Assembly: GCA_024102815.1 (NCBI GenBank)
Contig: JAGFJJ010000005.1
Coordinates: 62,001-126,000 of the forward strand
Length of the DNA: 64,000 nt
Source: Phycisphaerae bacterium
Lineage (GTDB): Bacteria > Planctomycetota > Phycisphaerae > UBA1845
Reading direction: 5' to 3'
Both the position numbers and the translations under genes were made by a program. The notes below the pieces were generated by a model. That model was not told the origin of the DNA. It searched no databases and was given only the letters and a program-made list of their open reading frames with translations. Below are positions 1,538 to 16,201 of the stretch, one piece after another. Each line of letters begins with the position of its first letter. Within the stretch, counting starts at the first letter, position 1.

Positions 1538-2797
1538 CTACTTCGGCGTATTCGGAATCACCGCGACCGGCCCGGGTCGCTTGTCGGGGAACGAAATTCC
1601 CTCGTCCTCGTCATGACACGAAGTACATGCCGGAGGCTCGTCAAACTTCCGATCTTCGTGGCAGTCCTCACAGTCGAAGGACCCATGCTCCTCGTTGAGA
1701 ATCTGTCCCGTCACGGCATGATCAAACGTCTCCGACGACCAGTCCGCATGGCACACGTTGCACTCCCGCGGACGGGACGTAAACGGCGTCGTCTTGTGAC
1801 ACGTCCGGCAGTTGCGACCCGCGTGGAAACGGTTGAGCGGCCAGCCCGTCCGGGCGTGATCGAACGGCGGCGGCATCGGCTCTCCCTCGGCAAAGTGGCA
1901 GTGATTGCAGCGTTGCGGCGATTCGACGTCGTGGCACTCCGCACAAGGACGATGATGTTCATCGAGCGTGCGAACCTGCTGAACGTGCTGTTTTCCGTTC
2001 TCGTGGCAGCGGTTGCAGTTGTCCTCCTTATGGCACTCCGCGCAGGCAAACCCGTACTGGTGGATGTGCTCGCGGTGCCGGAAAACGACCTTGGTATCGG
2101 GGTGTCCCTCGCGTCGGGTCTCGTAGACCTCCATTTCCGGCTCGGGAATCGGCGGATGCATCCGGCCGATGATGTCGCCGGGGCTCGGTATGGCCTCCCC
2201 GACCTCAGGGGCCGATGGTCCCGTCTTGGGTTGGTGGCAGGCGCCGCAGGCCGTCTCCCCGCTCCACTCACGGTGACAACTCATGCACTGCCGGTGATAG
2301 GCGCCTTTCAGTCCCGGCATGCGGATGTCGCCTGCGCCCGGCTCCGCCGCGTGACAGGTCTTGCAGGCCGGATGCTCGACGCCTTCCGGCGTGTAATGGT
2401 GACAGACCTCGCAACCCCGCGTCATCTCCGACATGGCCGCGTGACCGGCGTGGTCGAAGGGAACGGGCAAATAGCGGTTCTCAAGCTCATCGAGAATGAC
2501 GACGCTGGGGCCTTTTTTCGCTTTCGCCAATTCGACCGCGAATTCCTCCGCGCGGTCTCGCGTGCAGGTCCGCAGGCAGAGACCCTCGGAAGTCGGAGCG
2601 GGGCAGGTGTGGCAGGTTCGGCAATCACCGATGCGCACGTCCTCCGCAACCGTGGCCGAAGCGGTTGAACGCGATCGGGACGTCATTTCCGCAGCCGGGC
2701 GCTGCACGCGGGGACTCGCCCACAGCAGCGAAGCGCCCGTAAGCCCCAGAGCGACTGGCGTGATGGCAAGAAAATTGGCCCAACGTCGTTTCATCAT
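1538..2797 (-). CDS. 13-haem periplasmic cytochrome c (cytochrome c3-like)
   Basis: The protein has 419 residues, with an N-terminal hydrophobic signal/anchor (about residues 8-28) and 13 CXXCH motifs spread from about residue 59 to near the C-terminus, several with the FDHxxH spacing typical of class III cytochromes. The first motif sits in a CxxCHxC context followed by a second Cys-rich stretch, a pattern often found in cytochromes coded beside NrfD proteins. Its start lies 5 nt after the stop of the NrfD-like gene, so the two are almost certainly co-transcribed and the protein probably exchanges electrons with that membrane subunit. Two ATGs lie in tandem at 2797 and 2794, and either may be used. 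It resembles HmcA/QrcA-type cytochromes in role only; orthology cannot be claimed. Confidence 0.88.
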   Translation of the reverse strand: MMKRRWANFLAITPVALGLTGASLLWASPRVQRPAAEMTSRSRSTASATVAEDVRIGDCRTCHTCPAPTSEGLCLRTCTRDRAEEFAVELAKAKKGPSVVILDELENRYLPVPFDHAGHAAMSEMTRGCEVCHHYTPEGVEHPACKTCHAAEPGAGDIRMPGLKGAYHRQCMSCHREWSGETACGACHQPKTGPSAPEVGEAIPSPGDIIGRMHPPIPEPEMEVYETRREGHPDTKVVFRHREHIHQYGFACAECHKEDNCNRCHENGKQHVQQVRTLDEHHRPCAECHDVESPQRCNHCHFAEGEPMPPPFDHARTGWPLNRFHAGRNCRTCHKTTPFTSRPRECNVCHADWSSETFDHAVTGQILNEEHGSFDCEDCHEDRKFDEPPACTSCHDEDEGISFPDKRPGPVAVIPNTPK

Positions 2798-2802
2798 CTA
2801 CG

Positions 2803-4002
2803 TCACACCGCCTTGGCTTTCGCCGGCTGACTGATGACCGGGAAGTAGGTCACAAGTGCGCGATAGCAGAGCATCAGGAGCGAGATCAGACCGACCGTTA
2901 CCGCAATCTCTCCCACCGACGGGAAGTAGGCCTTCACCGCGTACGGCGGGCTGTACGCCGTCAGGAACACGTTCACTCGATTCATCGCCACGCCCAGTAC
3001 GACGAGGAGCGCCGCGGTCAGGAGCAGCTTCGGATTCCGCCGCACACGATCCGAAAGGAGCATGACAAAGGGCAGAACCACGCCAAAGAGCATTTCGACG
3101 ATAAACATCGTGCTCTGCACGGAGCCTTCACCGAGGAATCCGAACGCCTCGCGGATCGCCAGGTCTGACAGCTTGACGGCCAGGTAGATCCCCAGCAGGA
3201 CGGGGATATACCGTGCCAGCGGCGACAGCACGTTCATTTCCGGTTTGAGCTTCAGCGCCCAGGAAGCGTACATCGACTCGACGATCACCATGGGGAACCC
3301 CACCGCAAACGCCGAAAGCAGGAAGAGCAGCGGCAGGAGCGGCGTGTACCACAGCGGGTGCATCTTGTACGGCGCGATGACCATCAGGTTGCCCAGCGAC
3401 GACTGGTGCAGGCAGGACAGCACCACGCCGGCGATGATGAATACCGCCATCACCTTACCCACGGTGGCGTTGAGTGATCGGCAGATTCGAGCCAGTCGCG
3501 GATGCGAACCGTCGTTTTCGAAACGCTCGCAGAAAATGGGCAAAAACTCGATGTACAGAACCGTGAGGTAGCACATGACACATATGCCTACCTCGAACAA
3601 CACCGAGTTCCCCTGCCACATGGTCGGCCACATCGGGTGCCAGATGTTGTACGGGCGACCCAGATCGACCAGCAGACCGATGGCCACGAAGGTGTATCCG
3701 AGCAGCGCCGTCAACAGGGCCGGTCGTGTGATCGCGTGGTAGTGCTCCCGATGAAAAATGTGTGCCAGTGCTGCCGTGGTGAATCCGCCCGCGGCCAACG
3801 CAACACCGGTGGCGACGTCGATGGCGATCCAAAGTCCCCAGGGATGCTGCTGATCGAGGTTGGTCACCGCCGAGAGCCCGAAGATAAACCGACCGGCTGC
3901 GAAAAATATGCCGATCAGTGTCAGCCCGGCCAGGACCATCACCCCGGGAGTGAGCATCGTTCGATTCACCGGCGCCGGAATCTCGTGTTCGTGCGCGCTC
4001 AT
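2803..4002 (-). CDS. NrfD/HybB-family membrane subunit
   Basis: The 399-residue polytopic membrane protein has about ten hydrophobic segments. Its length and the N-terminal pattern (MLTPG, then a loop with WGLWIAIDV) match the HybB branch of the NrfD/polysulfide reductase family. Members bind menaquinone/quinol in the membrane and pass electrons to a partner ferredoxin-type subunit. Here that partner is the gene just upstream: its stop overlaps this ATG by 4 nt, and AGGAG precedes the start. The 13-haem cytochrome follows 5 nt downstream. The set therefore looks like a quinone:cytochrome c oxidoreductase module of the Hyb/Hmc/Qrc style. Direction of electron flow cannot be read from sequence. 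Confidence 0.9.
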   Translation of the reverse strand: MSAHEHEIPAPVNRTMLTPGVMVLAGLTLIGIFFAAGRFIFGLSAVTNLDQQHPWGLWIAIDVATGVALAAGGFTTAALAHIFHREHYHAITRPALLTALLGYTFVAIGLLVDLGRPYNIWHPMWPTMWQGNSVLFEVGICVMCYLTVLYIEFLPIFCERFENDGSHPRLARICRSLNATVGKVMAVFIIAGVVLSCLHQSSLGNLMVIAPYKMHPLWYTPLLPLLFLLSAFAVGFPMVIVESMYASWALKLKPEMNVLSPLARYIPVLLGIYLAVKLSDLAIREAFGFLGEGSVQSTMFIVEMLFGVVLPFVMLLSDRVRRNPKLLLTAALLVVLGVAMNRVNVFLTAYSPPYAVKAYFPSVGEIAVTVGLISLLMLCYRALVTYFPVISQPAKAKAV

Positions 4003-5000
4003 GATGATGCTCCTGCGCCGACGGACTCGACTTCAAGCCGCGACGATTTGGCGGGACGGTGATCGTTCCCATGCGCCCGGCTGGGGTCGGCCGTCTTGTC
4101 TTCTGTTGTGCTGTCTTCGCGTGGCCGGGTCATCCACATGGCCGTGGCCAGAATGCCCGCCCAGACGATCGGCGGGACCCAGTGCTTAAAGATGGCGTGC
4201 TGGACGGTCTCGGTCAGGATCGGTGGGGCCCCCGACCCCATGGCGTGGAACTTGATATCCTCAAACGGGACGCTGGACAGGTACATCCACGACGTGCCGC
4301 CGACTTCGTGCTCGCCATACACGTGGTCGACGTAGACGTCCGGCGACGCCGCGATCTTTTCGCGGGCCAGGCTCAGCAACTCGCTTCGCCGGCCGTAGGT
4401 CATGCAATCCACCGGGCAGATCGCCACACATGCGGGCACTCCGCCCTCCTTGGCAATCCGCGGGGCGCAGAAGTTGCACTTGCGCACCTGCGGCGTGAGT
4501 GGCTTCTGATACTCGTAAGTGGGGATCTGGAACGGGCACGCCACCATGCAGTAGCGGCAACCCATGCACTTCCAGGCGTCGTAAACCACCGCCCCGGTAG
4601 GCTCCTTGTGGAACGCGCCCACAAGACAAGCCGAGGCGCACGCCGGATCGATGCAGTGCAGGCAATTCACTTTGGAGTGGATCGGACGCTCCTCGGACGC
4701 CGGGTTCTCAAACCGGTTGACCACCGTGTAGCTGTCGGGACGAGGGCGGCGATACTGCTCGAAGGGCTTCTTGTCCTCAAACGTCTCGATCGGCGGAGGG
4801 GCGAAACCGGCAGCCTCCTGGCACGCGTATTCGCATTTGCGACATCCGATGCACGTCGGAATATCGACAAGCACACCCATCGGATCGGCGTCTGTTTCAC
4901 CGTGGGCCGCCAGCGCCTTCCCGGCCGGAACGGTCGCAGCAGCCGCGCCCGCCCCCAGAACCCCCAGTCGACCCAGAAACTCTCTGCGATTGATGGACAT
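3999..5000 (-). CDS. Tat-exported four-cluster ferredoxin, HybA-like
   Basis: The protein has 333 residues. A twin-arginine signal (NRREFLGRLG) opens it, so it is exported folded with its clusters. Four Cys blocks follow: CxxCxxCxxxC near residue 51, a CxxCxxxxCxxxC block near 113, a CxxCxxCxxxCP block near 144, and a CxxC ... CxxxCPxxC pair near 175-197, which together fit four [4Fe-4S] clusters. A single hydrophobic helix near residues 272-290 anchors the C-terminus, as in HybA of hydrogenase 2. The start ATG 5000 has AGAGG 6 nt upstream. It overlaps the NrfD/HybB-like gene by 4 nt, which is the usual HybA-HybB pairing, but no hydrogenase large or small subunit lies in the window, so it probably serves the neighbouring multihaem cytochromes. 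Confidence 0.92.
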   Translation of the reverse strand: MSINRREFLGRLGVLGAGAAAATVPAGKALAAHGETDADPMGVLVDIPTCIGCRKCEYACQEAAGFAPPPIETFEDKKPFEQYRRPRPDSYTVVNRFENPASEERPIHSKVNCLHCIDPACASACLVGAFHKEPTGAVVYDAWKCMGCRYCMVACPFQIPTYEYQKPLTPQVRKCNFCAPRIAKEGGVPACVAICPVDCMTYGRRSELLSLAREKIAASPDVYVDHVYGEHEVGGTSWMYLSSVPFEDIKFHAMGSGAPPILTETVQHAIFKHWVPPIVWAGILATAMWMTRPREDSTTEDKTADPSRAHGNDHRPAKSSRLEVESVGAGASS

Positions 5001-5254
5001 CTCCAGCCTCTTTTCCGGGCCATTGGTACTCCCCGGTTGCTAGGCGAACGAACTGCAACGCAGGAGACGGCCCGTCCAGGAGATTGGGGCTACAAATCCC
5101 ATGCCAGACCAGCGGGAAAAAGGGGCTGATTCGGTGGATGTACCGTCAGGCCGCCAAACAAAGTGGATTACCGGCGCCGGCCGAGGTGACTTGGCGGCGG
5201 GTGTCCGCACCCGGACGCCGTACCTTGCCGGCGCCCGAGCACGAAACGGCGTTC

Positions 5255-8113
5255 TTAGCGATAAGCGAAGACCATGGCGTAGATAATCAGGAGGACCAGC
5301 GTAAAGCCCACGACCAGCGCCGTGTACCCCAGCACCCGGGCGCCGCGTTCCAGTGTCCGGGGAGCGGGATCGACCAGGCCCTCTTCCAACTCTCCGCTGG
5401 CGACCAGCCGCTCATAGTAGCGCGGCTTGTCGTGCTTGAGTTCGTCCACCGACATTCGCCCAGTAAATATCACCGGATCCATGGGGAATTTCTCCGGGCG
5501 GAAGTGCGTGTTGAAGAAGTGTATCGTGAAGATGAACCCCGTCGCCAGCAACGCCTCGTCGCTGTGAATGATCGTGGCCACGTTGATGGACCATCCGGGC
5601 AGAACCCTGGTGAAGAACTCAGGGAACCACAGGCACAGACCGGTGGTGCCGATCACCGCCACGCCCCAGAATACCGCGAAGTAGTCGAACTTTTCCCAAT
5701 AGGTCCACTTGCCGTAGCGGGGGCGAGGCCCGTACCCGAGAAACCACTTTACCGTCCCCACCAGTTCCTTGACGTCCGACCATTGCGGCAGAATGGTCTC
5801 GGGACCGAAGAAAAACTGCCACGCGCTCTTGTCGCGCCTGCGGAACCGACGCCATACGTCCCAGAGGTGCGTTCCGAAGTAGCCGAACGTCAGAATCGCG
5901 CAAATTCGGTGGATCCACCCGGCCGTCTCCGCGCCGCCCAGTAGCCGGGCCAGATACTGAGCCCAGCCGGTGTACGAGAATTTGAGGACCATGCCGGTAA
6001 TGGCCAGGCCGAAGAAACTGACGATCACCACCAGGTGCATCTTGCGGAGGAACGGCGGGAAGCGCATGAATTGCCGCTGACCGTGCTCTGCGTCGGCATC
6101 GACCTCCTTGCGGAATTCTCGCCGCAGCTTGAGGGATCGCGGGAACCACAGCAGGGTGTGCAGCCCGAAGAAGCCGAACGTGCCCACGAGCAGGGAAGTC
6201 ATGAACCAGAAGACGTAGTACAGCGCCGGGTACTTGTCCGGATCGTGGTGCGTGGCGTGCGTCAGGTAGCCCGCGAACTGCCGGTGTGAGCCGGGATGAC
6301 ATTTGCCGCATGTCTGCACGATGTTATCGTGCGACAAGTGCGACTCCGGATTCTCCGGTGGAAGAATGTCGTGCGCACCGTGACAGTCGTAACACTTGGC
6401 CTTCGTCGTGTCGCCAAGGGCCGAAGCCTTGCCGTGGAATGTATCGAAATACGCCTCCGTGACTTCCTCGTGGCATTCCCCGCACTGCTGCATGATGCCC
6501 AACTCGAATTCGGGCTGATCCGTGCGTGAAGCAGCATGGGCCGGGTGGCAATTGTTGCAGTGGGGAAGTTCCGGCATCCCCCGCACGCGGCGCTCCTCGT
6601 AGTCAGGGTTTCCGATGGCCGAGTGAATGCTCTGCTGGAATTTCTCGTAGATGCCGTCGTGGCACTTGCCGCACGTCTCCGCGATGTGCGTCGGGTGGAC
6701 CGTGGACTCGGGGTCGCTCAGGGGCAGTTCTTTGTGCGGGGAATGACAATCGGTGCAGGTTGCGGTCACGGTCAGCCCGCTCTCCAGCAGGCCCTTCCCG
6801 TGAATGCTCATCGTGTACTTCTCAACGATGTGATCCTCGGGGCCGAAGTTGCGCAGTGCCGCCTGCCCGCCGTCGCGGTGACATCGGGCGCAGAGGTTAG
6901 GGACATTTCGGGCGTACGTCGGCGATTGCCGGACGATCTGCTGGAGCGTTAGGGGTTCATTCTCGGAAACCGTGTGCTCGAGGATTCCGTGCGTGCCGTG
7001 GCAATCGGTGCAGTAGGGGGCGTTGGCATCCCCGGCGCGATGCAGCAGCCCGTGACGTCCACGGTCGTAGTCGCCCACTTCGGCCTCGTGGCAGATGGAG
7101 CAATCGACCCTTGGAGCGACCGTCTTGCATGGGCGCTCCTCGTCAGCCGGGCTACCTCCGGTGTGACATTGTGCGCAAGCCACGTTGTTGCGCCCGTGAA
7201 CCGAATTGCCGTGCTCGTCAGCATCAACAAAAAGGCTGCGGCGATCAGCCGATGCCCGTAGCTGTGGGTCAGCATGACAACGCAGGCAGTCGGCATTGCT
7301 CATGTTCGTGTCGTAGAACACCTTGCGGATTTCGTGCGGTGAGTGACATTCCACGCACAGCGGGACGACACCCTCTTTCTCCCACAGCTCGCCTGCGATC
7401 ACCTTGCGGTGAACCTGCTCGATGAGCCCGTGGCACTTCATGCACGTGGCTACGACATTGTCCTTGTTGATTGTCGAACGCGGATCGTCGTGCGGCAGAA
7501 CGTTGTGTCCGGTGTGGCAGCTCGTGCAAACCGCCGTTACCACGAGCCCCTGCTTGAACAACCCCTCGCCGTGGATGCTGTCCTTGTAGCGATCGAACAC
7601 CTGCTCTTCGGGCAGGTTGTGCGTACGCTCCACGGCCGCGCCTTCCGCGTGGCACTGGGCGCACATTTGTGGAATGTTGAACGGCGATACGGCCGAATTA
7701 CGGTCATTCAGCGGCAAGATGTAATGGTTGCCGTGGCAATCCTGGCAACGAGGGGCGTCCGGGTCACCGGCCTTGACGTGCTGTCCGTGTGTACTGTTCC
7801 AGTAGGTGGCGATGGGACCGTCATCATCGTGGCAATCGCCGCAGTTGACCGGGTCAAGCCCGGTCTCGTGCGGATACTCCTCGGTGCCGGCCAATGCGCT
7901 GTGGCAATCCACGCAGTCGAATTCCCCGTGCAGGCTGGCGGCGTAGCGCTCTTCGTCTACGGAAAGGGACACTTCCCGCCCGTTTCGCTCGACCTTGAGC
8001 CCGGGGCGCCCGTGGCACTTGAGGCAATCGGAGTTTTCCTGGCCGAGGGTAACGGCGCTCCCCAGAAGTGAGATCACCATCCCCAGGAGCAAGAATCGGG
8101 ATTGAAGCTGCAC
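5255..8113 (-). CDS. 19-haem cytochrome c fused to membrane cytochrome b
   Basis: From GTG 8113 the protein has about 952 residues. I preferred 8113 over the upstream in-frame GTG at 8149 because AGGA lies 8 nt before it and a clean signal peptide (about residues 1-25) starts there. Nineteen CXXCH motifs cover about residues 30-600. The last 330 residues form six hydrophobic segments with conserved His, as in cytochrome b561/formate dehydrogenase gamma-type membrane subunits, and end in a final helix close to the C-terminus. It is the first gene of the redox cluster, separated by 254 bp from the ferredoxin gene. The truncated gene at 1-1466 has the same architecture with fewer haems, so the two are probable paralogues flanking the ferredoxin/NrfD pair. 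A role in membrane quinol oxidation coupled to periplasmic electron transfer is inferred. Confidence 0.88.
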   Translation of the reverse strand: MQLQSRFLLLGMVISLLGSAVTLGQENSDCLKCHGRPGLKVERNGREVSLSVDEERYAASLHGEFDCVDCHSALAGTEEYPHETGLDPVNCGDCHDDDGPIATYWNSTHGQHVKAGDPDAPRCQDCHGNHYILPLNDRNSAVSPFNIPQMCAQCHAEGAAVERTHNLPEEQVFDRYKDSIHGEGLFKQGLVVTAVCTSCHTGHNVLPHDDPRSTINKDNVVATCMKCHGLIEQVHRKVIAGELWEKEGVVPLCVECHSPHEIRKVFYDTNMSNADCLRCHADPQLRASADRRSLFVDADEHGNSVHGRNNVACAQCHTGGSPADEERPCKTVAPRVDCSICHEAEVGDYDRGRHGLLHRAGDANAPYCTDCHGTHGILEHTVSENEPLTLQQIVRQSPTYARNVPNLCARCHRDGGQAALRNFGPEDHIVEKYTMSIHGKGLLESGLTVTATCTDCHSPHKELPLSDPESTVHPTHIAETCGKCHDGIYEKFQQSIHSAIGNPDYEERRVRGMPELPHCNNCHPAHAASRTDQPEFELGIMQQCGECHEEVTEAYFDTFHGKASALGDTTKAKCYDCHGAHDILPPENPESHLSHDNIVQTCGKCHPGSHRQFAGYLTHATHHDPDKYPALYYVFWFMTSLLVGTFGFFGLHTLLWFPRSLKLRREFRKEVDADAEHGQRQFMRFPPFLRKMHLVVIVSFFGLAITGMVLKFSYTGWAQYLARLLGGAETAGWIHRICAILTFGYFGTHLWDVWRRFRRRDKSAWQFFFGPETILPQWSDVKELVGTVKWFLGYGPRPRYGKWTYWEKFDYFAVFWGVAVIGTTGLCLWFPEFFTRVLPGWSINVATIIHSDEALLATGFIFTIHFFNTHFRPEKFPMDPVIFTGRMSVDELKHDKPRYYERLVASGELEEGLVDPAPRTLERGARVLGYTALVVGFTLVLLIIYAMVFAYR

Positions 8114-8465
8114 TGCCACGATCCTGTCACCGGAGGGCGACGTGCCCACACGGCATCAAGCGTTAATGAAACGAATTCGGTAGCCGCAGCCGATTGATAT
8201 TCGGCCTGGCACCGGCCCACGCCGCGGTAGCCGATGGAACCGTATGGAGCCCCGCAGCAGGGTACGGCGTAGCATATTCCGTGCCACTGCGAACTTCGGC
8301 CCGGTCGGAAACAGATCACACTGATGACCGTCCCGGAATGGGGCAACGCTGGCCTTCCCGGAATGATCCGCTATCTTGTCGCCAGCCGTCTTCGCGGGCC
8401 GTTTGCGAATTTGTTACCCTGGGCCGTCCCCCGGCCACCTGTACGCGGGGCCGAAAGGAGCCATC

Positions 8466-9401
8466 ATGCTGGGACTACTCTGCACACTCATGGCACCGCT
8501 GGCCGCCATCCCGCCCGATGCCCTTTCCGTTTCCGCCCGGATGGACGCGCCAAGCCTGGAGGTCGGCCAGACCTACACCATTCAGCTCGACGCTGAATTC
8601 GCGAAGGGAGTCTCGGCTGCCGACGCTGGCATTCCTGCCCCGATCCTCCAGATCGACGTACCGACTTCGGCCGAGCTGGCGGGAAAGGTGCTTGCGACCC
8701 AGGACGAGCTTCGCAAGAATGAGTTTCTCCAGGCGCCCTATGAGCGTCTGCTGAAGGAACTGCCCGCCCGGGTCGAATTCAAGCTGACCAGGGAGCCCGC
8801 ATCCAACGAGCACTTCGCCCTGAACGTCATCGCCTATCTTGCCGATGACGAAGGAAACTCACGTTTCGTTCGAAAGCGATTGACGCTCCCACTGGCAGGT
8901 AGTGGCGAGGCAACGCCCGCCGATCCGACGACTTCGACGTGGGGAAGGGGCGACACGCTCCAGATCGGTGACCGTGTCGAGCCCTTCACCCTTCCCAGGG
9001 CCGACGGCTCGAAGCTCTCGCTGGACGGATACCTCGGCAAGAAGAACATCATCGTCACGACATACCGGGCGCACTGGTGACCGTACTGTGCGGCGCAACT
9101 GGTCCAGTTGCAGAAGCGCTACGATTCCTTCCGTGATCGTGATATCGCGGTGATTGCCATTGCCCAGGAGGATTCCGACCTCGAATCACATGGGCGATTC
9201 CTCAAGCACTTCGATGGCGAGCCGCCGTTCGATATCGTCTGCGACGTAAACGGAGAAAAAACGGGTCGGTACCACCGCACCACGGCCTATCTCATCGACA
9301 AGGAGGGTGTCGTCCGGCAGGTGTTCCCCATGCTGGCCCGATCGCGCCCTTCGTGGGATGCGATCCTCAACGAAATCGACAGACTGAACCTCGGCAAGTA
9401 G
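8466..9401 (+). CDS. Exported DsbD_N-like/AhpC-type thioredoxin-fold selenoprotein, in-frame UGA = Sec
   Basis: ATG 8466 follows AAAGGAG with 6 nt spacing. Residues 1-16 form a signal peptide, about 20-150 a beta-rich domain resembling the N-terminal domain of DsbD-type proteins, and about 175-311 a redoxin (AhpC/TSA, thioredoxin-fold) domain. The frame meets TGA at 9078-9080 and continues without a break to TAG at 9399-9401. The residues around the TGA read TYRAHW-(UGA)-PYCAAQL, exactly where relatives have YRxxWCPYC, so UGA replaces the first Cys of the CxxC active site and gives U205-P-Y-C. Downstream come the expected QLxxLQKRYDxF helix, an EDSDL-type region, and the YxxxxAYLIDKEGVV strand. 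A SECIS-like hairpin starts 14 nt after UGA. The product would have 311 residues with Sec. A nonsense mutation is the alternative, but position and hairpin argue against it. Confidence 0.85.
9095..9111 (+). promoter_or_regulatory. Bacterial SECIS-like hairpin
   Basis: Six perfect base pairs (GCAACT with AGTTGC) close a five-base loop GGTCC, giving a 17-nt hairpin that begins 14 nt after the UGA at 9078-9080. The well-studied E. coli fdhF SECIS upper stem is also 17 nt, lies about 11 nt after its UGA and carries GGUC in its loop, the element contacted by SelB. I do not see the bulged U of fdhF here. It lies inside codons for the helix following the active site. Confidence 0.75.
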
Positions 9402-9434
9402 ACTTGCGAGCACTTCTCAACGATGGAGATGCAA

Positions 9435-9470
9435 AACGGGCGAGAGCATCGAAGGACACTCCCGCCCGTT
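9435..9470. terminator. Probable terminator between convergent genes
   Basis: AACGGGCG (9435-9442) pairs perfectly with CGCCCGTT (9463-9470) around a 20-nt loop and is followed on the plus strand by CTTGTTT. It sits between the end of the selenoprotein gene and the end of the convergent protease gene, so it could stop either transcript. The large loop lowers confidence. Confidence 0.5.
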
Positions 9471-9507
9471 CTTGTTTCGTCGAAATAGACGCCTCGCGCG
9501 CCGTGTC

Positions 9508-12500
9508 TTACGGCTCAATCGGCGGATCGCCGTTGATGAAGTACATTTGCACGTCCACTTCGGCCGGGAAGTCGTTGATCAGGTCCAGGAACGTGTCCTG
9601 CACGAGATAGTCACCGTCGGCCGTCCAACGCAGCTCGATCTTGGACAGGATTAACAGGCTGCCCTTCGTGCTGCCCGAGACGCGACCCAGTTCAACCGCG
9701 CCCGGTCCTCCCGCGAGCGGCGAACCGTCTGCGTCCACGGTCCTTCCCGTACCCCGGTCGCCCCCAAGGCGATCGAGCCCCAGACCCAGCGCCGGCCGCT
9801 CCGGCGGAATGCCGCCGGCCAAGTCAGCCTGAATCAACGCCGTCTCGTTGCCCACGCCCGTGAGCAGACCGGCCGTGTACTTCAGGGCCTTGCCGAACCG
9901 CAGTTGCTTGATCGACAAGCCGAGCAGCGAAGCCGCCTGGCTGTCGGAATCCGGCAGGTCGCAGTTCTGGCTGGCCAGACCGTCCACGCGGGCCTTGCCC
10001 ATGTCCGTCTGCAGGTTCCCACGCAGGAAATGGTTCGGGGCGTCGTAGCCTCGCAGAAGAGCCTGGTCCCAACAGGTAATGCAGCGTTCGGTACCCGAGA
10101 ACTTGAACTCGTTCATGTTCCAGATGGTGAAGTTCGCCTTCGTGGTCACAGGTCCGTTGTTCTCCTGCCGCAGATCGACACTCACTGGGAACAGCGTCAG
10201 GTCCGTGTCGGTGAGAATTGAAAGCGGACCGGCTGAGTTGATCTGGGCCCCCGTGGCGAAGAAGTTGAACAGCAATTCGGCGAAGCCGGTCTGATACTCG
10301 ACGCCGTCCAGATGGAGTTGACCCGGCGTGCCCGTGGCCACGCCGTTCTCCCCGACCAGCGCCTGGAACGCGTATGCGTCGTACTCCGCGGCCGTCGCCC
10401 GGCGGTACTCCAGGATCAGCGCATCACCCGCCAGGTGGTTCCAGCGGATCTCCTCGCCGTTCTGATTTACCGCCCAAGCCAGGACATACCCGCGCATGAG
10501 GCGATCGCCGCTGCCTTCGGGGTCCTTGCGACCCGGCAGGCAGCCGGGATCGAGGCTGTCGAAGGGCGGAATGCCCAGCGGATCGCCCGAGGCGGCCGAC
10601 CAGTACGCCGGCTGGTTACCCGTGAGCGTGATCTTCGCGTCGTAGTTGTTCCAGCCGGGATGATCGGGAATGACGGTGATCTTGGCTTCGCAAGAATTCT
10701 GATTGCCGCAGTCGTCCTCGGCCGTGAACGTGACCGTCGTCGTGCCGTCGCACGGGAATCCGCCGCAAGGCGCGCCCTGTTCAACGGAGTTGTTGCTCAG
10801 CGTGGGCATGCCGTCGCAGTTGTCCGTGGCTTTGAAACTGGCAAGCCACTCGTTGGGTGTCATCGGACAGATGGCCGTCGTACCCCGGCCAAGGACGAGG
10901 TCGTCCGGGCACTCCACCATGGGCGGCGTTGCGTCAACCACATCTGCATCCACGCTGGAAATGTTCGACATGTTATCGCAGCAATCAAGCGTGCTCGCAG
11001 AGACCCTCACAGTAGCCGGGCAACTCGTCAGGTCGGACACAACGACCTGGCCGTTGAAGTTTACCCGCGTGGCACCGGCCTGCGACTTGTTCAGCGCGAC
11101 CATCCCGAGTGTCGCGTTGTTCGTAATCACGTTGACCGCAACGTCCACGTCTTCCGGCCGCACACAGCAGTTGTCTGTCACGGCGCCGCTGAACGGCAAG
11201 ACATAATCGCAGTTGTCGTCGACTTCGCCGCCGGTGGAATCCAGCGCTACGACCTGCGGTGTAATCCGGTCATGGACATTGGCGCTGGCATCTTCCATGC
11301 TCGTATTGCCACAGCCGTCCGTTGCCTCAATCGTGACCAGAATCGTTGCCGGGCAACTGGTCAGGTTGGAGACCGTCGCGCTGCCGCTGATGGTGAAGGC
11401 ATTGGTCCCGTTGGGCGTAACCGTATACATCACGTTGCTGACCGTGGCATTGTTGGTGGGATTTGAGACGGTGACCTCGATTCCGCTCTCCGGCAGGTAG
11501 TTGGTGTCACTCACTCCGGCGAAGAAGGTGATCGATCCGACACAGTTCGCATCGACATCGGTCCCAGACACCGCAAAACTGGTGATACTCGGAGGCGTCG
11601 TTGTGTCTTCGGGAGCGTAGGGTGCCAGCGTCTGGTTGATGCGGGCCGTGCACACCGGACAGAACGGCGCGAAGTTGCGCATCATGCAACTGAACACCGG
11701 TCGATAGGCGTCGCAATGGTAGTAGTGCGCGCCTTCATAGGCGCCCACGACCTGCATCCCCGGGAAAGGATCGCCTTGTGGATCGCACATCGTGCAGTCC
11801 GCGTTTTCCGTTGTCGGCATTGCTGTCGCCGCGTCGATGAACGACGCCCACTTGATCAGGTTTCGGTCCGACTCGATCGTCACGTTCGGTTGCGACGGCT
11901 CCGAAGCGGGGTGATTGTCGTGCCCCGCCTCGCCGGAACCGCAACCGGACCAATACTCGTACTCGTCCGCCAATCCGAACGCCGAATGGCCGAACTCGTG
12001 AATGGCGATATTCTCCCACGTTCCGCTCACCGACGTGACACCCACGGTACCACCCGATCCGCCGTAGATCGACGTGTTGACGATGACCAGCGCCTGGTTC
12101 CACTCGGGAAGCTGGGCGTTGAGCACGTCCGTGGCCGTGCTGTTGTTCGCGCCCAGCAGACGGCGAATCACGCCGTCGGAACAGAACGTCGAATCGAAGT
12201 ACGTATCGGCCGTGGCCCCGGTGCCATCGTCGCACGTGTCTGGATCGTCGGCACCCGAGTCCGTCGAGGTGACGTCGATCCGATAGACGTTGATCGAGCA
12301 GTTCTCGTCGAACGGCGGTGTCTGGAACATGAATTCCACGAAATCCTGGCAGTCTTGGGCGAATTGGGCCAGCTCTCCCTGCTGGTAGCCGTCACCCATC
12401 AGGACCAGGTTGAACCGGCTGGACGCTGGTCCGTTGTCCACGATTTTCGTTATTCCCACGACCATGCCGTCCGATGGACCGGCCTGAGCCGGCTCGACGA

Positions 12501-12558
12501 ACAGCAATCCCGAAAGACTCAATCCCGTTATCAGTGTTGTCAGCGTTGTGAGACGCAC
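9508..12558 (-). CDS. Secreted M64-type metallopeptidase with HYR-like repeats
   Basis: The protein has 1016 residues from GTG 12558, with GGGAG about 7 nt upstream. Residues 1-26 are a signal peptide. The zinc site HEFGH (187-191) is followed by FGLADEY, matching the HExGHxxFxLxDEY signature of the IgA peptidase M64 family. The Cys-rich catalytic region runs to about 310. From about 320 to 640 there are repeated beta-sandwich segments with CPATxxVTxxATDxCGN-type signatures similar to HYR/Ig-like repeats. The last ~370 residues form a beta-rich region I do not recognise. It is probably an extracellular or surface protease. No cognate chaperone or secretion gene is adjacent; the gene downstream in transcription is convergent. 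Confidence 0.82.
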   Translation of the reverse strand: MRLTTLTTLITGLSLSGLLFVEPAQAGPSDGMVVGITKIVDNGPASSRFNLVLMGDGYQQGELAQFAQDCQDFVEFMFQTPPFDENCSINVYRIDVTSTDSGADDPDTCDDGTGATADTYFDSTFCSDGVIRRLLGANNSTATDVLNAQLPEWNQALVIVNTSIYGGSGGTVGVTSVSGTWENIAIHEFGHSAFGLADEYEYWSGCGSGEAGHDNHPASEPSQPNVTIESDRNLIKWASFIDAATAMPTTENADCTMCDPQGDPFPGMQVVGAYEGAHYYHCDAYRPVFSCMMRNFAPFCPVCTARINQTLAPYAPEDTTTPPSITSFAVSGTDVDANCVGSITFFAGVSDTNYLPESGIEVTVSNPTNNATVSNVMYTVTPNGTNAFTISGSATVSNLTSCPATILVTIEATDGCGNTSMEDASANVHDRITPQVVALDSTGGEVDDNCDYVLPFSGAVTDNCCVRPEDVDVAVNVITNNATLGMVALNKSQAGATRVNFNGQVVVSDLTSCPATVRVSASTLDCCDNMSNISSVDADVVDATPPMVECPDDLVLGRGTTAICPMTPNEWLASFKATDNCDGMPTLSNNSVEQGAPCGGFPCDGTTTVTFTAEDDCGNQNSCEAKITVIPDHPGWNNYDAKITLTGNQPAYWSAASGDPLGIPPFDSLDPGCLPGRKDPEGSGDRLMRGYVLAWAVNQNGEEIRWNHLAGDALILEYRRATAAEYDAYAFQALVGENGVATGTPGQLHLDGVEYQTGFAELLFNFFATGAQINSAGPLSILTDTDLTLFPVSVDLRQENNGPVTTKANFTIWNMNEFKFSGTERCITCWDQALLRGYDAPNHFLRGNLQTDMGKARVDGLASQNCDLPDSDSQAASLLGLSIKQLRFGKALKYTAGLLTGVGNETALIQADLAGGIPPERPALGLGLDRLGGDRGTGRTVDADGSPLAGGPGAVELGRVSGSTKGSLLILSKIELRWTADGDYLVQDTFLDLINDFPAEVDVQMYFINGDPPIEP

Positions 12559-12675
12559 GGCCTATCTCCCACTTCTTTCCCAAAATCCGCTCAGCGGCGG
12601 TTTCTTGATCATTACCCTTAAACGTCGAATGAATGCGTGGCGTCACGTCCGCAATGCGGAGGAACGAGCCCGAAA

Positions 12676-13512
12676 CTACGGAATCGGATCGAACAGCGGA
12701 ATACGTCCCACTTCCGACGCGGGTTGCGCATGGCTGTCCGGTTCCAATGGGCTGCTGAAGAGAACCACTTCGTCGCCCGAATCCGGCGCTGGAATCAGCA
12801 GCGAGAAGACACGCTGCTCCGGAAGACTCTCGACGCGATCGGGCACCATGTCACTCTTGGAGAGATCAGGGCCTTCGAACACGATAAAGACCGGGTTGTG
12901 AATGATCCGGCGGTATTTCACGCTGCCATCAGCGGACTGAAGCTCATACCAGAAACCACTGGGAAGGTCGGCGCCTTTCGTTGCCGGAAGCTCGTCAGAC
13001 GGCGGAAGGACCATCTGCACGTCCATTCGCGAGATCAGGCGGAATTCACCGGCCTTGTCCGGAATGTTGCTCGAAAACTCGATCTTCAGCCGCTCCACGG
13101 CCTGCGGACCGCCGATGACGCGATAATCGGTGCTGGCTTCCTCGCCGGAAAGAGATGCACAGAATTCGCCCCCGATGACCAGTCCCTGGGCGACGATCTT
13201 GTGCGGGCCACTTGTCGTGTTCTCCGGAATGGTGATTACCGTGGAGAACGCGCCGTTGGTGACGTCAGCAATTCCAAGCGAGGGACCGCCAGCCGAGTCC
13301 AAGGCGAGCTGCACCCCGCATGTATTGGCCGCGAACTCCATGCCCTGCACGGTGGTCTGTCCGCCGGCGGGTCCGGCCTGCGGATCAGCCGTGATTGTCG
13401 GCCCCACCGGCAGGCCAAGCGCGGCGGCCTCACTCATTTGCCAGACGGCGCAAATCGACGGCACCGCCAGCACCGACAACATTAATCTCGTGAACGACGT
13501 TTTCGTGGTCAT
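12676..13512 (-). CDS. Secreted hypothetical protein with IPT/TIG-like N-terminal domain
   Basis: I place the start at ATG 13512, which has AGGGGA 9 nt upstream, rather than at the in-frame TTG 13521, which would have no room for a ribosome site. The product has 278 residues: a signal peptide to about residue 30, then a beta-rich segment with PxxGPAGGQTTVQGxxF, the kind of pattern found in IPT/TIG or Ig-like domains, then an unrecognised C-terminal half. It lies 117 bp upstream of the M64 protease on the same strand and may be co-transcribed with it. A sigma70-like promoter lies about 110 bp upstream. The function is unknown. Confidence 0.7.
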   Translation of the reverse strand: MTTKTSFTRLMLSVLAVPSICAVWQMSEAAALGLPVGPTITADPQAGPAGGQTTVQGMEFAANTCGVQLALDSAGGPSLGIADVTNGAFSTVITIPENTTSGPHKIVAQGLVIGGEFCASLSGEEASTDYRVIGGPQAVERLKIEFSSNIPDKAGEFRLISRMDVQMVLPPSDELPATKGADLPSGFWYELQSADGSVKYRRIIHNPVFIVFEGPDLSKSDMVPDRVESLPEQRVFSLLIPAPDSGDEVVLFSSPLEPDSHAQPASEVGRIPLFDPIP

Positions 13513-13629
13513 TGCGCGCAATCCCCTCTGATGACTTCACTTCCCGCAGCTATTTGTAACGTTACCGCAACGGGGCCGAGAAAAAGCGACACCCCGTCCG
13601 TCCTCATTCTCCCTTTTCGGACGAACGCG

Positions 13630-13658
13630 AGTATGTCGACTTGGCTGTACAAAGTCAA
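13630..13658 (-). promoter_or_regulatory. Sigma70-like promoter for the secreted protein genes
   Basis: On the minus strand TTGACT (bases 13658-13653) is followed after exactly 17 nt by CATACT (13635-13630). Five of six and four of six bases match the consensus. It points at the gene starting at 13512. Confidence 0.45.
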
Positions 13659-13813
13659 GGTCATAAGTTCACCAATACTGAACTAAGCAACGCTTTCCAT
13701 TGATTCGGAGTAAGAATGGGTAATATGGGATGCGTGGTTGGTCTTCCCGATTCGGACGGAACGGCCAACCCGGCTCTTCCCCTTTACGCCGATCCGGGAC
13801 ATCATGCTTCGCG

Positions 13814-15094
13814 ATGTGCCCTGATGCATTCCCAGTCGAATCCGCCGCTCTTGCCCTGGATGCCGATGACCCATTGGCCGGCTTCCGGGAGCGTTTTCTC
13901 CATCCGGTGAACTCGAGCGGATCGCCGACGATCTACTTCGCCGGTAATTCGCTGGGGCTCCAGCCCAGAGCATCGCGGGTGGCTGTTGACGAAGTCTTGG
14001 GAAGCTGGGCCGACCGGGCCGTCGAGGGCCACTTTGAGGGCGCCCGACCATGGTACAGCTACCCCGAGTACTTCCATGACAGCTTGGCTCGACTGGTCGG
14101 AGCCGGGCCTGATGAAGTCGTCGTGATGAACACGCTGACCGTCAACCTCCATCTGTTGATGGTCAGCTTCTATCGCCCGACGCCTGGGCGGCACGCGATC
14201 CTCATGGAGGCGCCGGCGTTTCCGTCCGACACCTACGCCGTCAAGACGCAACTGCATTATCACGGATTCGATCCGCGCGAGGCCTTGCTGCTCGCCGAGC
14301 CACGCCCCGGCGAGCACATTCTTCGTACAGAGGACATCGAGCGCCTGTTGGAAAAGAACGGCGACCGGATTGCACTCGTGCTTCTCGGCGGCGTGAATTT
14401 CTTCACGGGTCAGGTACTGGACATGGCCCGCATTACCCAGGCCGCCCAAAGGCGGGGCTGCGTTGTCGGGTGGGACCTCGCCCACGCCGTGGGCAATGTG
14501 CCATTGGCGCTTCACGATTGGGGCGCCGATTTCGCTGTCTGGTGCAGCTACAAGTATCTCAACGCTGGGCCGGGGGCCGTGGCGGGTTGTTTTGTGCACG
14601 GGCAGCACGGCCGCAGTGCTGAACTCCAACGATTCGGCGGATGGTGGGGTAACGATCCCAAGACGCGCTTCCTCATGCATCTTCAGCCCGACTTCATCCC
14701 CCGCGAAGGAGCGGGCGGTTGGCAGGTCAGCAATCCGCCCATTCTGTCGCTCGCTCCGCTTCGTGCCTCGCTTGATCTCTTTGATGAAGCGGGAATGAGC
14801 GCACTGCGCGCGAAGTCGTTGCGCCTGACGGGCTGCCTGATGGATTGGATTGGGACGCTCTCGCCGCACCGATTCGAGGTCATCACGCCGAGCGACGAAG
14901 CGTCGAGAGGGTGCCAGCTATCCATGTTGGTCCACGAACGGCCCAAGGAGCTGTTTCGAGCGCTGATCGACGAAGGCGTTGTCTGCGATTTTCGGGAGCC
15001 GAACGTGATCCGTGCCGCCCCCACGCCGCTCTACAATTCCTATCACGACGTGTGGCGCTTCGCCAGGATTCTGGCCCGTCACGACGCCGACTGA
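13814..15094 (+). CDS. kynU: Kynureninase
   Basis: PLP-dependent hydrolase that cleaves kynurenine to anthranilate and alanine (or 3-hydroxykynurenine to 3-hydroxyanthranilate) in the cytoplasm. From ATG 13814 the length is 426 residues, the normal family size; an in-frame ATG at 13730 would add 28 low-complexity residues. Diagnostic stretches are FAGNSLGLQP near residue 37, NTLTVNLHLL near 106 for PLP phosphate binding, WDLAHAVGN near 222 with the PLP-contacting Asp, and CSYKYLNAGPG near 244 with the Schiff-base lysine, followed by the FGGWWGxD substrate loop. No other tryptophan-degradation gene is adjacent, so it may act alone in the pathway here or with genes elsewhere. Confidence 0.93.
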   Translation: MCPDAFPVESAALALDADDPLAGFRERFLHPVNSSGSPTIYFAGNSLGLQPRASRVAVDEVLGSWADRAVEGHFEGARPWYSYPEYFHDSLARLVGAGPDEVVVMNTLTVNLHLLMVSFYRPTPGRHAILMEAPAFPSDTYAVKTQLHYHGFDPREALLLAEPRPGEHILRTEDIERLLEKNGDRIALVLLGGVNFFTGQVLDMARITQAAQRRGCVVGWDLAHAVGNVPLALHDWGADFAVWCSYKYLNAGPGAVAGCFVHGQHGRSAELQRFGGWWGNDPKTRFLMHLQPDFIPREGAGGWQVSNPPILSLAPLRASLDLFDEAGMSALRAKSLRLTGCLMDWIGTLSPHRFEVITPSDEASRGCQLSMLVHERPKELFRALIDEGVVCDFREPNVIRAAPTPLYNSYHDVWRFARILARHDAD

Positions 15095-15115
15095 CGCTTT
15101 CGCCGCACCCGGACG

Positions 15116-16201
15116 TCAACCCTTCGAATCGATCGGAAGGCGGACGGAAAAGCAGGATCCTATGCCCGCGGTCGAAGTGACCCGAATTGTCCCGCCCATC
15201 AATCGCACGATGCCGTGGCTCACGGCCAATCCAAGCCCCAGCCCCTTGCCGGGGATCTCCGCGGCGCGATCCTTCGTACTGAAGAAGGGTTCGAATACGC
15301 GCAAGCGTGTTTCCTCGTCGATGCCCACGCCCGTATCGCGCACGTCGATGACGATTTCCCGGCCATCCAACCGGGCCGAGAGTGTAACTTCCCCCTCGCC
15401 GCGGAGGGCCTCAACGGCGTTCTTGAGCAGGCTCCGCAGTACCGTTGTCAACTGGTTCCGTCCGACGGTATGCGCGGGCAGGGGGGCAAGATCAAGCCGG
15501 AAACGCATGTCCGAACCGGCGAGCTCGTTACGCACCTCGTTACTTACGTCGAGGATGATGTTGGTGACTTCCGCCCGATCGCTGACGCGCACGTCACCTT
15601 CGGCAAAGGCGAGCAGTTCGTGGACGAGTCCGGTCGCGCGCTGGAGGGCCTCCGCCGTTTGCCGCAGCACGCGCCCCTTCAACACGGGGTCGTTGCTGCT
15701 CAGCGCGAAATCGACGCTGGTGATGACGCCTCCGAGGATGTTATTGAAGTGATGGGCAAGGGCTCCGGCCAGTTGTCCCAGCGCCGCCATTTTCCGCTGC
15801 TCGGTGAGCTCGGTCTGAAGCGTGATCCGCTGCGTGATGTCCCGCACCCAGACCGACGCGCCACTGCGCAGTCCCTTGTCGCAGACGATCGGGGCGATGT
15901 TCCCCACGAGTTCTCGCGGCGAGCCCCCTTCGTCGCGGTGCTGAAACGCCACGCTGGATGCGGTGCCCTCCTCGATGGCCCTGCGCAGCAGACGCACCGC
16001 CTCCTCGCGCCACTCCTGCGGAACGACCGACGCAATCGGGGCACCGATCATGCGATCGGCCGCGGCGCCGAACATCCGCGACGCCGCCAAGTTCCATACC
16101 GTCACCCGAAGATCCAGGTCGCAGGCAATCAGAGCGATGCCCGCGTGTTCGCACAACTGGCGGAAGAACGCCTCGCCGGTCGCAGGCGATTCGCCGCTCA
16201 C
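15116..16201 (-). CDS. PAS-domain sensor histidine kinase, NtrB-like
   Basis: The protein has 361 residues and no membrane segment, so it is a soluble sensor. A PAS domain covers about residues 10-125 (LDLRVTVWNxxxxxxFG). The dimerisation/phosphoacceptor helix has ALAHHFNNILGG with the likely phosphorylated His at 150. The ATPase domain carries the N box (LLKNAVEAL), DTGVGI and GKGLGLGLA. The residue after the phospho-His is His rather than the more common Asp or Glu. Its start overlaps the stop of the upstream lipoprotein gene by 4 nt, so they form an operon and the lipoprotein may supply or shape the signal. No response regulator is next to it. Confidence 0.88.
   Translation of the reverse strand: MSGESPATGEAFFRQLCEHAGIALIACDLDLRVTVWNLAASRMFGAAADRMIGAPIASVVPQEWREEAVRLLRRAIEEGTASSVAFQHRDEGGSPRELVGNIAPIVCDKGLRSGASVWVRDITQRITLQTELTEQRKMAALGQLAGALAHHFNNILGGVITSVDFALSSNDPVLKGRVLRQTAEALQRATGLVHELLAFAEGDVRVSDRAEVTNIILDVSNEVRNELAGSDMRFRLDLAPLPAHTVGRNQLTTVLRSLLKNAVEALRGEGEVTLSARLDGREIVIDVRDTGVGIDEETRLRVFEPFFSTKDRAAEIPGKGLGLGLAVSHGIVRLMGGTIRVTSTAGIGSCFSVRLPIDSKG

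Follow-up and report, generated by a model that had tools for sequence, protein, structure and literature searches.

A conserved in-frame TGA and a covarying SECIS hairpin point to a two-domain redoxin selenoprotein in Planctomycetota

The plus-strand gene at 8466-9401 of the window (the whole 64-kb stretch of DNA analyzed here) almost certainly encodes a real selenoprotein. Judging from the sequences compared, this is so because the in-frame TGA is conserved, the selenocysteine (Sec) insertion hairpin (SECIS) is conserved and covarying, synonymous codons are constrained and the genome holds a complete Sec machinery. Chance, sequencing error and a pseudogene are excluded as the origin of the TGA. 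The explanation of the whole that we favor, with moderate confidence, is an exported, SelB-dependent selenoprotein that would act as a periplasmic TlpA/ResA-like thiol-disulfide oxidoreductase. The features of the gene are the following:

8455..8461, plus strand: Shine-Dalgarno-like AAAGGAG ahead of ATG 8466
8466..9401, plus strand: whole selenoprotein gene, 311 aa, single Sec (U205), stop TAG
8466..8513, plus strand: hydrophobic N-terminal segment, residues 1 to about 16, with a hydropathy peak and pLDDT <50 at residues 1-12
8514..8945, plus strand: N-terminal beta-sandwich, residues about 17-160, Ig-like (AlphaFold2, Foldseek)
8955..9398, plus strand: AhpC/TSA-Redoxin domain, residues about 164-311 (PF00578, PF08534), peroxiredoxin/thioredoxin fold
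9078..9080, plus strand: TGA decoded as selenocysteine U205 in W-U-P-Y-C, conserved in homologues
9095..9111, plus strand: bacterial SECIS hairpin, stem 9095-9100 with 9106-9111, loop 9101-9105, invariant G9102

As the first-pass annotation had claimed, a single frame runs from ATG 8466 through TGA 9078-9080 to TAG 9399-9401, and reading the TGA as Sec gives 311 residues with the active-site motif W204-U205-P206-Y207-C208. The chosen start is preceded by a Shine-Dalgarno-like sequence in 32 of the 36 family members. Such an ORF by itself is little proof, because long ORFs around a TGA are common in this GC-rich window (19 places in the 64 kb), and the folding energy of the hairpin, taken alone, is modestly unusual (z -1.95). 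With the hairpin only mildly unusual and long ORFs not rare, the case rests on comparison. The prediction that a standard gene caller would split the gene into a truncated protein and a TTG-started piece also proved correct: ORF calling under table 11 returns one protein ending at 9080 and a fragment at 9108-9401. This is exactly the split expected if the TGA were a true stop, whether through a pseudogene, an assembly error or two genes, the second starting at the TTG. That reading is very improbable, since no Shine-Dalgarno-like sequence lies upstream of TTG 9108 and the active site is absent from the fragment, and further evidence against it comes from the comparisons below. The terminator scan showed no intrinsic terminator just 3' of the gene.

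The first homologue search, made in 100 relatives, returned 30 matches above 40% identity, the gene itself among them. All 30 contain the TGA, which falls at W-U-P-x-C in every aligned sequence. Together with further members of the class and a collection of named genomes, these matches make up 36 distinct two-domain Phycisphaerae sequences, every one with TGA, and none with TGC or TGT, at the homologous codon. Rather than stops at other positions, the same codon is TGA in all relatives read. That one TGA recurs in 36 distinct genomes from many assembly projects, in a protein conserved on both of its sides, argues against a true stop. Between pairs of members the N-terminal domain is on average 39% identical, the redoxin stretch ahead of U 53% and the stretch beyond it 56%. 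The residues encoded after the TGA are thus fully constrained, being as conserved as the redoxin part before it and more so than the N-terminal domain.

Five further full-length Planctomycetota relatives, all with TGA, were read from 392 genomes of the phylum; the motif is W-U in four (L114-L117) and T-U-G-R-C in one (L118). Among the 36 Phycisphaerae sequences and these five, with the 392 phylum genomes searched, no two-domain protein with Cys in this place turned up. When the N-terminal domain alone was used as a query against the 392 genomes, nine matches in eight genomes were obtained. Eight of these lie in genes whose reading showed a Sec redoxin; for the ninth (L139, on contig 41 of G598) a TGA was tallied, though its motif was not cleanly read. 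Titles of the named records are Planctomycetota, Planctomycetaceae, Phycisphaerae or Phycisphaerales, with the single exception of L099 (JANQQE010000011.1), titled Alphaproteobacteria. This record carries the same gene as genome G004 of the window's own family, and its title is probably a wrong label. Separately, redoxin matches of about 30% identity lie in open frames of about 260-280 aa, each with one TGA (for example G097:C1:3885363-3885647, G086:C29:51324-51602 and G065:C3:208415-208624), and possibly represent a second Sec redoxin family in the order.

The hairpin itself (GCAACU-GGUCC-AGUUGC) had been described as a 17-nt SECIS-like element 14 nt after the TGA. Its length and starting point are as stated, and it has six pairs; the loop is GGUCC (or GUC if G9101-C9105 pairs) and not GGUC. 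Across the 36 distinct sequences the stem is paired in 216 of 216 cells, and compensatory changes are seen in three of the six pairs: A-U becomes G-C in five sequences, and C-G to U-A and G-C to A-U each occur in a single sequence. This covariation is greater than in any of 500 shuffles and is abolished when the partner is slid by 1-3 columns, and the second loop base is G in 36 of 36. Among the 177 columns scored for synonymous constraint, the four strongest are codons +5, +7, +10 and +9 counted from the TGA, each of them overlapping or abutting the stem; in 100,000 random column sets the mean constraint excess of the hairpin zone was never matched. Sec members at a greater distance retain all six pairs with other bases, and at least one pair is lost in six of nine Cys-bearing relatives. 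Judged by these alignments the hairpin is a bacterial SECIS, and its covariation counts against a true stop. A hairpin paired at six of six positions is present at the SECIS site of three Cys single-domain redoxins (L125, L126 and L127), whose genomes have no SelA-like match other than a divergent one that falls short of the cut-off; it is possibly a fossil SECIS, possibly chance.

All four genes proposed as a check on the assignment are present in the source genome (5.09 Mb, 95% complete). On contig 11 a selB match of 320 bits stands immediately before selA (579 bits), selD is matched at 360 bits, and a tRNA-Sec with a UCA anticodon scores 66 bits, with ARAGORN and Rfam in agreement. SelB and Sec-tRNA(UCA), guided by the hairpin 9095-9111, would decode UGA 9078-9080 as Sec, and, by sequence comparison, the conserved redoxin domain can be produced only through this decoding. 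The full sel gene set is a further point against a true stop. Another reading is a changed genetic code, in which the in-frame TGA would be read as another amino acid such as Trp. A TGA in frame is what such a code predicts, but several members of the same gene terminate in TGA, the site aligns with Cys in thioredoxin-like homologues, and a SECIS and tRNA-Sec are present, leaving this reading a negligible probability.

Among the relatives, selA is present in 26 of 29 that carry the gene and in 86 of 100 overall; the co-occurrence is weak evidence because so many relatives have selA anyway. The three family-bearing relatives without a selA match have assemblies that are all 63-83% complete, and the search of these three for tRNA-Sec gave none over the cut-off, which is consistent with assembly incompleteness without proving it. 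The selD gene of the source genome (contig 31) has an in-frame TGA of its own (L017:1531-1533) near the N-terminus, in CAG-U-AGK, and its product is probably also a selenoprotein.

The C-terminal domain matches PF00578 at 66.5 bits (cut-off 26) and PF08534 at 45.9 bits, the domain match spanning residues 167-287, and PF00578 is matched by all 26 members of set A2. The AlphaFold2 model of the protein has a pLDDT of 91, and its C-terminal domain shows a peroxiredoxin/thioredoxin fold, with Z up to 19.5 against structure neighbors. The term "AhpC-type" in the first-pass annotation is therefore apt at the domain level, but a classical peroxiredoxin role is not supported. Aligned with the BCP-type peroxiredoxin Bcp1 (3drn), the protein has R201 in place of the Pro of PxxxTxxC, U205 in place of its Thr and C208 where the peroxidatic residue stands, so the classical motif, with its peroxidatic residue last, does not appear in the window protein. 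By sequence alignment U205 instead lies on the first Cys of the thioredoxin-type WCPYC (3hdc), and the TGA position is aligned with Cys in more distant thioredoxin-like homologues. The proposal that Sec replaces the first active-site Cys, at a conserved site, agrees with this, the site being that of a thioredoxin/TlpA-type CxxC. Because U205 sits at the first Cys of CxxC and C208 at the peroxidatic position, CxxC-type redox chemistry is suggested: thiol-disulfide exchange by U205/C208 appears likelier than the classical peroxiredoxin reaction, and the protein is probably a CxxC redoxin that uses a selenolate as its nucleophile, not a Sec-peroxiredoxin (TxxU).

Sec reacts readily with peroxides, and the selenoprotein could act as a peroxide reductase, an atypical peroxiredoxin or SelL-like enzyme in which H2O2 or organic peroxides oxidize U205, C208 resolves and thiols regenerate. 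The PF00578 domain, peroxiredoxin fold neighbors and weak matches to the SelL_rel_redox and PrxU models would suit such an enzyme. Against it, the Pro and Thr of PxxxTxxC are replaced by R201 and U205, C208 occupies the peroxidatic Cys site, and all NCBIfam matches of the window protein are far below their curated cut-offs. We regard a peroxide reductase as rather unlikely and an exported thiol-disulfide function as fairly probable.

The nature of the N-terminal domain is less clear-cut than the DsbD_N assignment it had received. Modeled alone, it forms a beta-sandwich with a pLDDT of 92 (AlphaFold2). Pfam gave no match over the cut-off and, with hits allowed up to E 5, listed PF11412 for none of the 36 N domains; a profile search against the PDB returned no significant relative, and neither did hhalign against DsbD_N-type domains (probability 8%). 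In Foldseek the first eight rows are Neisseria nDsbD, with E of 1e-3 to 1e-2 and TM about 0.35, and VIA-align puts other Ig-like domains in its leading rows, at Z values reaching 8.6. The catalytic Cys pair of DsbD_N is absent; among the 36 N domains, 23 have no Cys, twelve have one and one has two. With no PF11412 match, weak fold support (E ~1e-3, TM 0.34) and the Cys pair missing, the assignment is weak. From the models, the domain is possibly a remote DsbD_N relative without the Cys pair. Such an origin is unproven and yet attractive, because a genuine PF11412 domain is fused to a different Sec redoxin in other planctomycetes, the C-terminal domain of L120 matching this model at 45 bits.

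Selenoproteins of the Prx-like UxxC kind are already known from reviews. Thiol:disulfide oxidoreductases of PF00578 with UxxC or UxxU have been tabulated (PMC9312934; PMC13188914), Prx-like 1 is listed as well (PMC2398784), and a redoxin family protein of PF08534 with UxxC is also among the known selenoproteins (PMC9312934; PMC13188914). Sec use in planctomycetes is described in a general genome paper (PMC4807772). The window protein shares with the PF00578 proteins the AhpC/TSA domain, the Sec first in UxxC and a bacterial SECIS just downstream, and with the PF08534 protein the Redoxin domain and UxxC, this last likeness being one of description only. It differs from the Prx-like UxxC selenoproteins in that its family adds the N-terminal beta-sandwich, occurs only in Planctomycetota in the searches made and yielded no Cys version. 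The nearest homologous domains with Cys at the U205 site are single-domain redoxins of other Planctomycetota (L119, L123-L130), mostly RA[HN]WCP[FY]CM, in which the N-terminal domain is absent and the hairpin is degraded in six of nine. Sec redoxins with WWULYC or WWULFC (L120-L122, other Planctomycetota) resemble the window protein in their UxxC Sec in AhpC/TSA, a SECIS-like hairpin in the same place and an extra domain, but the domain order is reversed and their C-terminal DsbD_N-like domain carries a pair of cysteines like that of DsbD_N. ResA/TlpA oxidoreductases have CxxC at the U205/C208 position; they lack the N-terminal domain, and the window protein reaches 46 bits with the ResA model against a cut-off of 170.

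The window protein is not covered by any curated NCBIfam model, and our literature search found no description of a two-domain, apparently Sec-only subfamily. The subfamily looks undescribed, and an earlier listing under a generic name, as one of the tabulated UxxC proteins, is possible. More tentatively, this may be a planctomycete-specific redoxin family in which Sec is obligatory, its N domain fused solely to a Sec redoxin and no Cys ortholog surviving; through its Cys-poor, perhaps DsbD_N-derived domain the protein would then be a dedicated partner in DsbD-type electron flow in the periplasm. Under standard gene calling the gene would be cut in two in every genome that has it, and a conserved redox enzyme, probably exported, would go unnoticed. 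With every member read carrying Sec, across several families and orders of one phylum, the family offers a test case for why some active sites do not revert to Cys, as well as a two-domain training example for selenoprotein finders.

Export is probable, as had been suggested: the N-terminal hydropathy peak is kept in most members (mean 2.46 versus 1.72 elsewhere), and residues 1 to about 16 are a probable Sec-type signal peptide by sequence. The lack of a positive n-region in most members counts against export. In the mechanism we favor, the protein would leave via the general secretory pathway to become a periplasmic thiol-disulfide oxidoreductase resembling TlpA/ResA. The U205 selenolate would attack an oxidized substrate, which could be a disulfide in a protein, a sulfenic acid or perhaps a peroxide; C208 would resolve it as a U205-C208 selenenylsulfide, and a periplasmic donor would re-reduce this bond. 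The most plausible donor is a DsbD-like protein of this genome, which has DsbD_N, DsbD_TM and Thioredoxin_7 domains. The Cys-poor beta-sandwich may serve as a docking domain for a partner or substrate.

Genomic context, in the flanks of 30 loci, gave nothing pointing to a substrate or partner. A conserved operon or neighbor was considered and rejected, with no shared neighbor beyond a few close relatives; nothing else from window 2501-15500 recurs in these flanks (up to 5 kb, many on short contigs). The multihaem cluster noted beside the gene is a real neighbor here: on the minus strand, window 1538-8149 holds a respiratory electron-transfer cluster made up of multihaem cytochromes c, an NrfD membrane subunit and a 4Fe-4S protein. 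It has no counterpart next to the gene in relatives, and a link to respiration is not supported because this neighborhood does not recur. On the other side, also on the minus strand, window 9508-12558 encodes a large protein that combines Peptidase_M64 and HYR domains.
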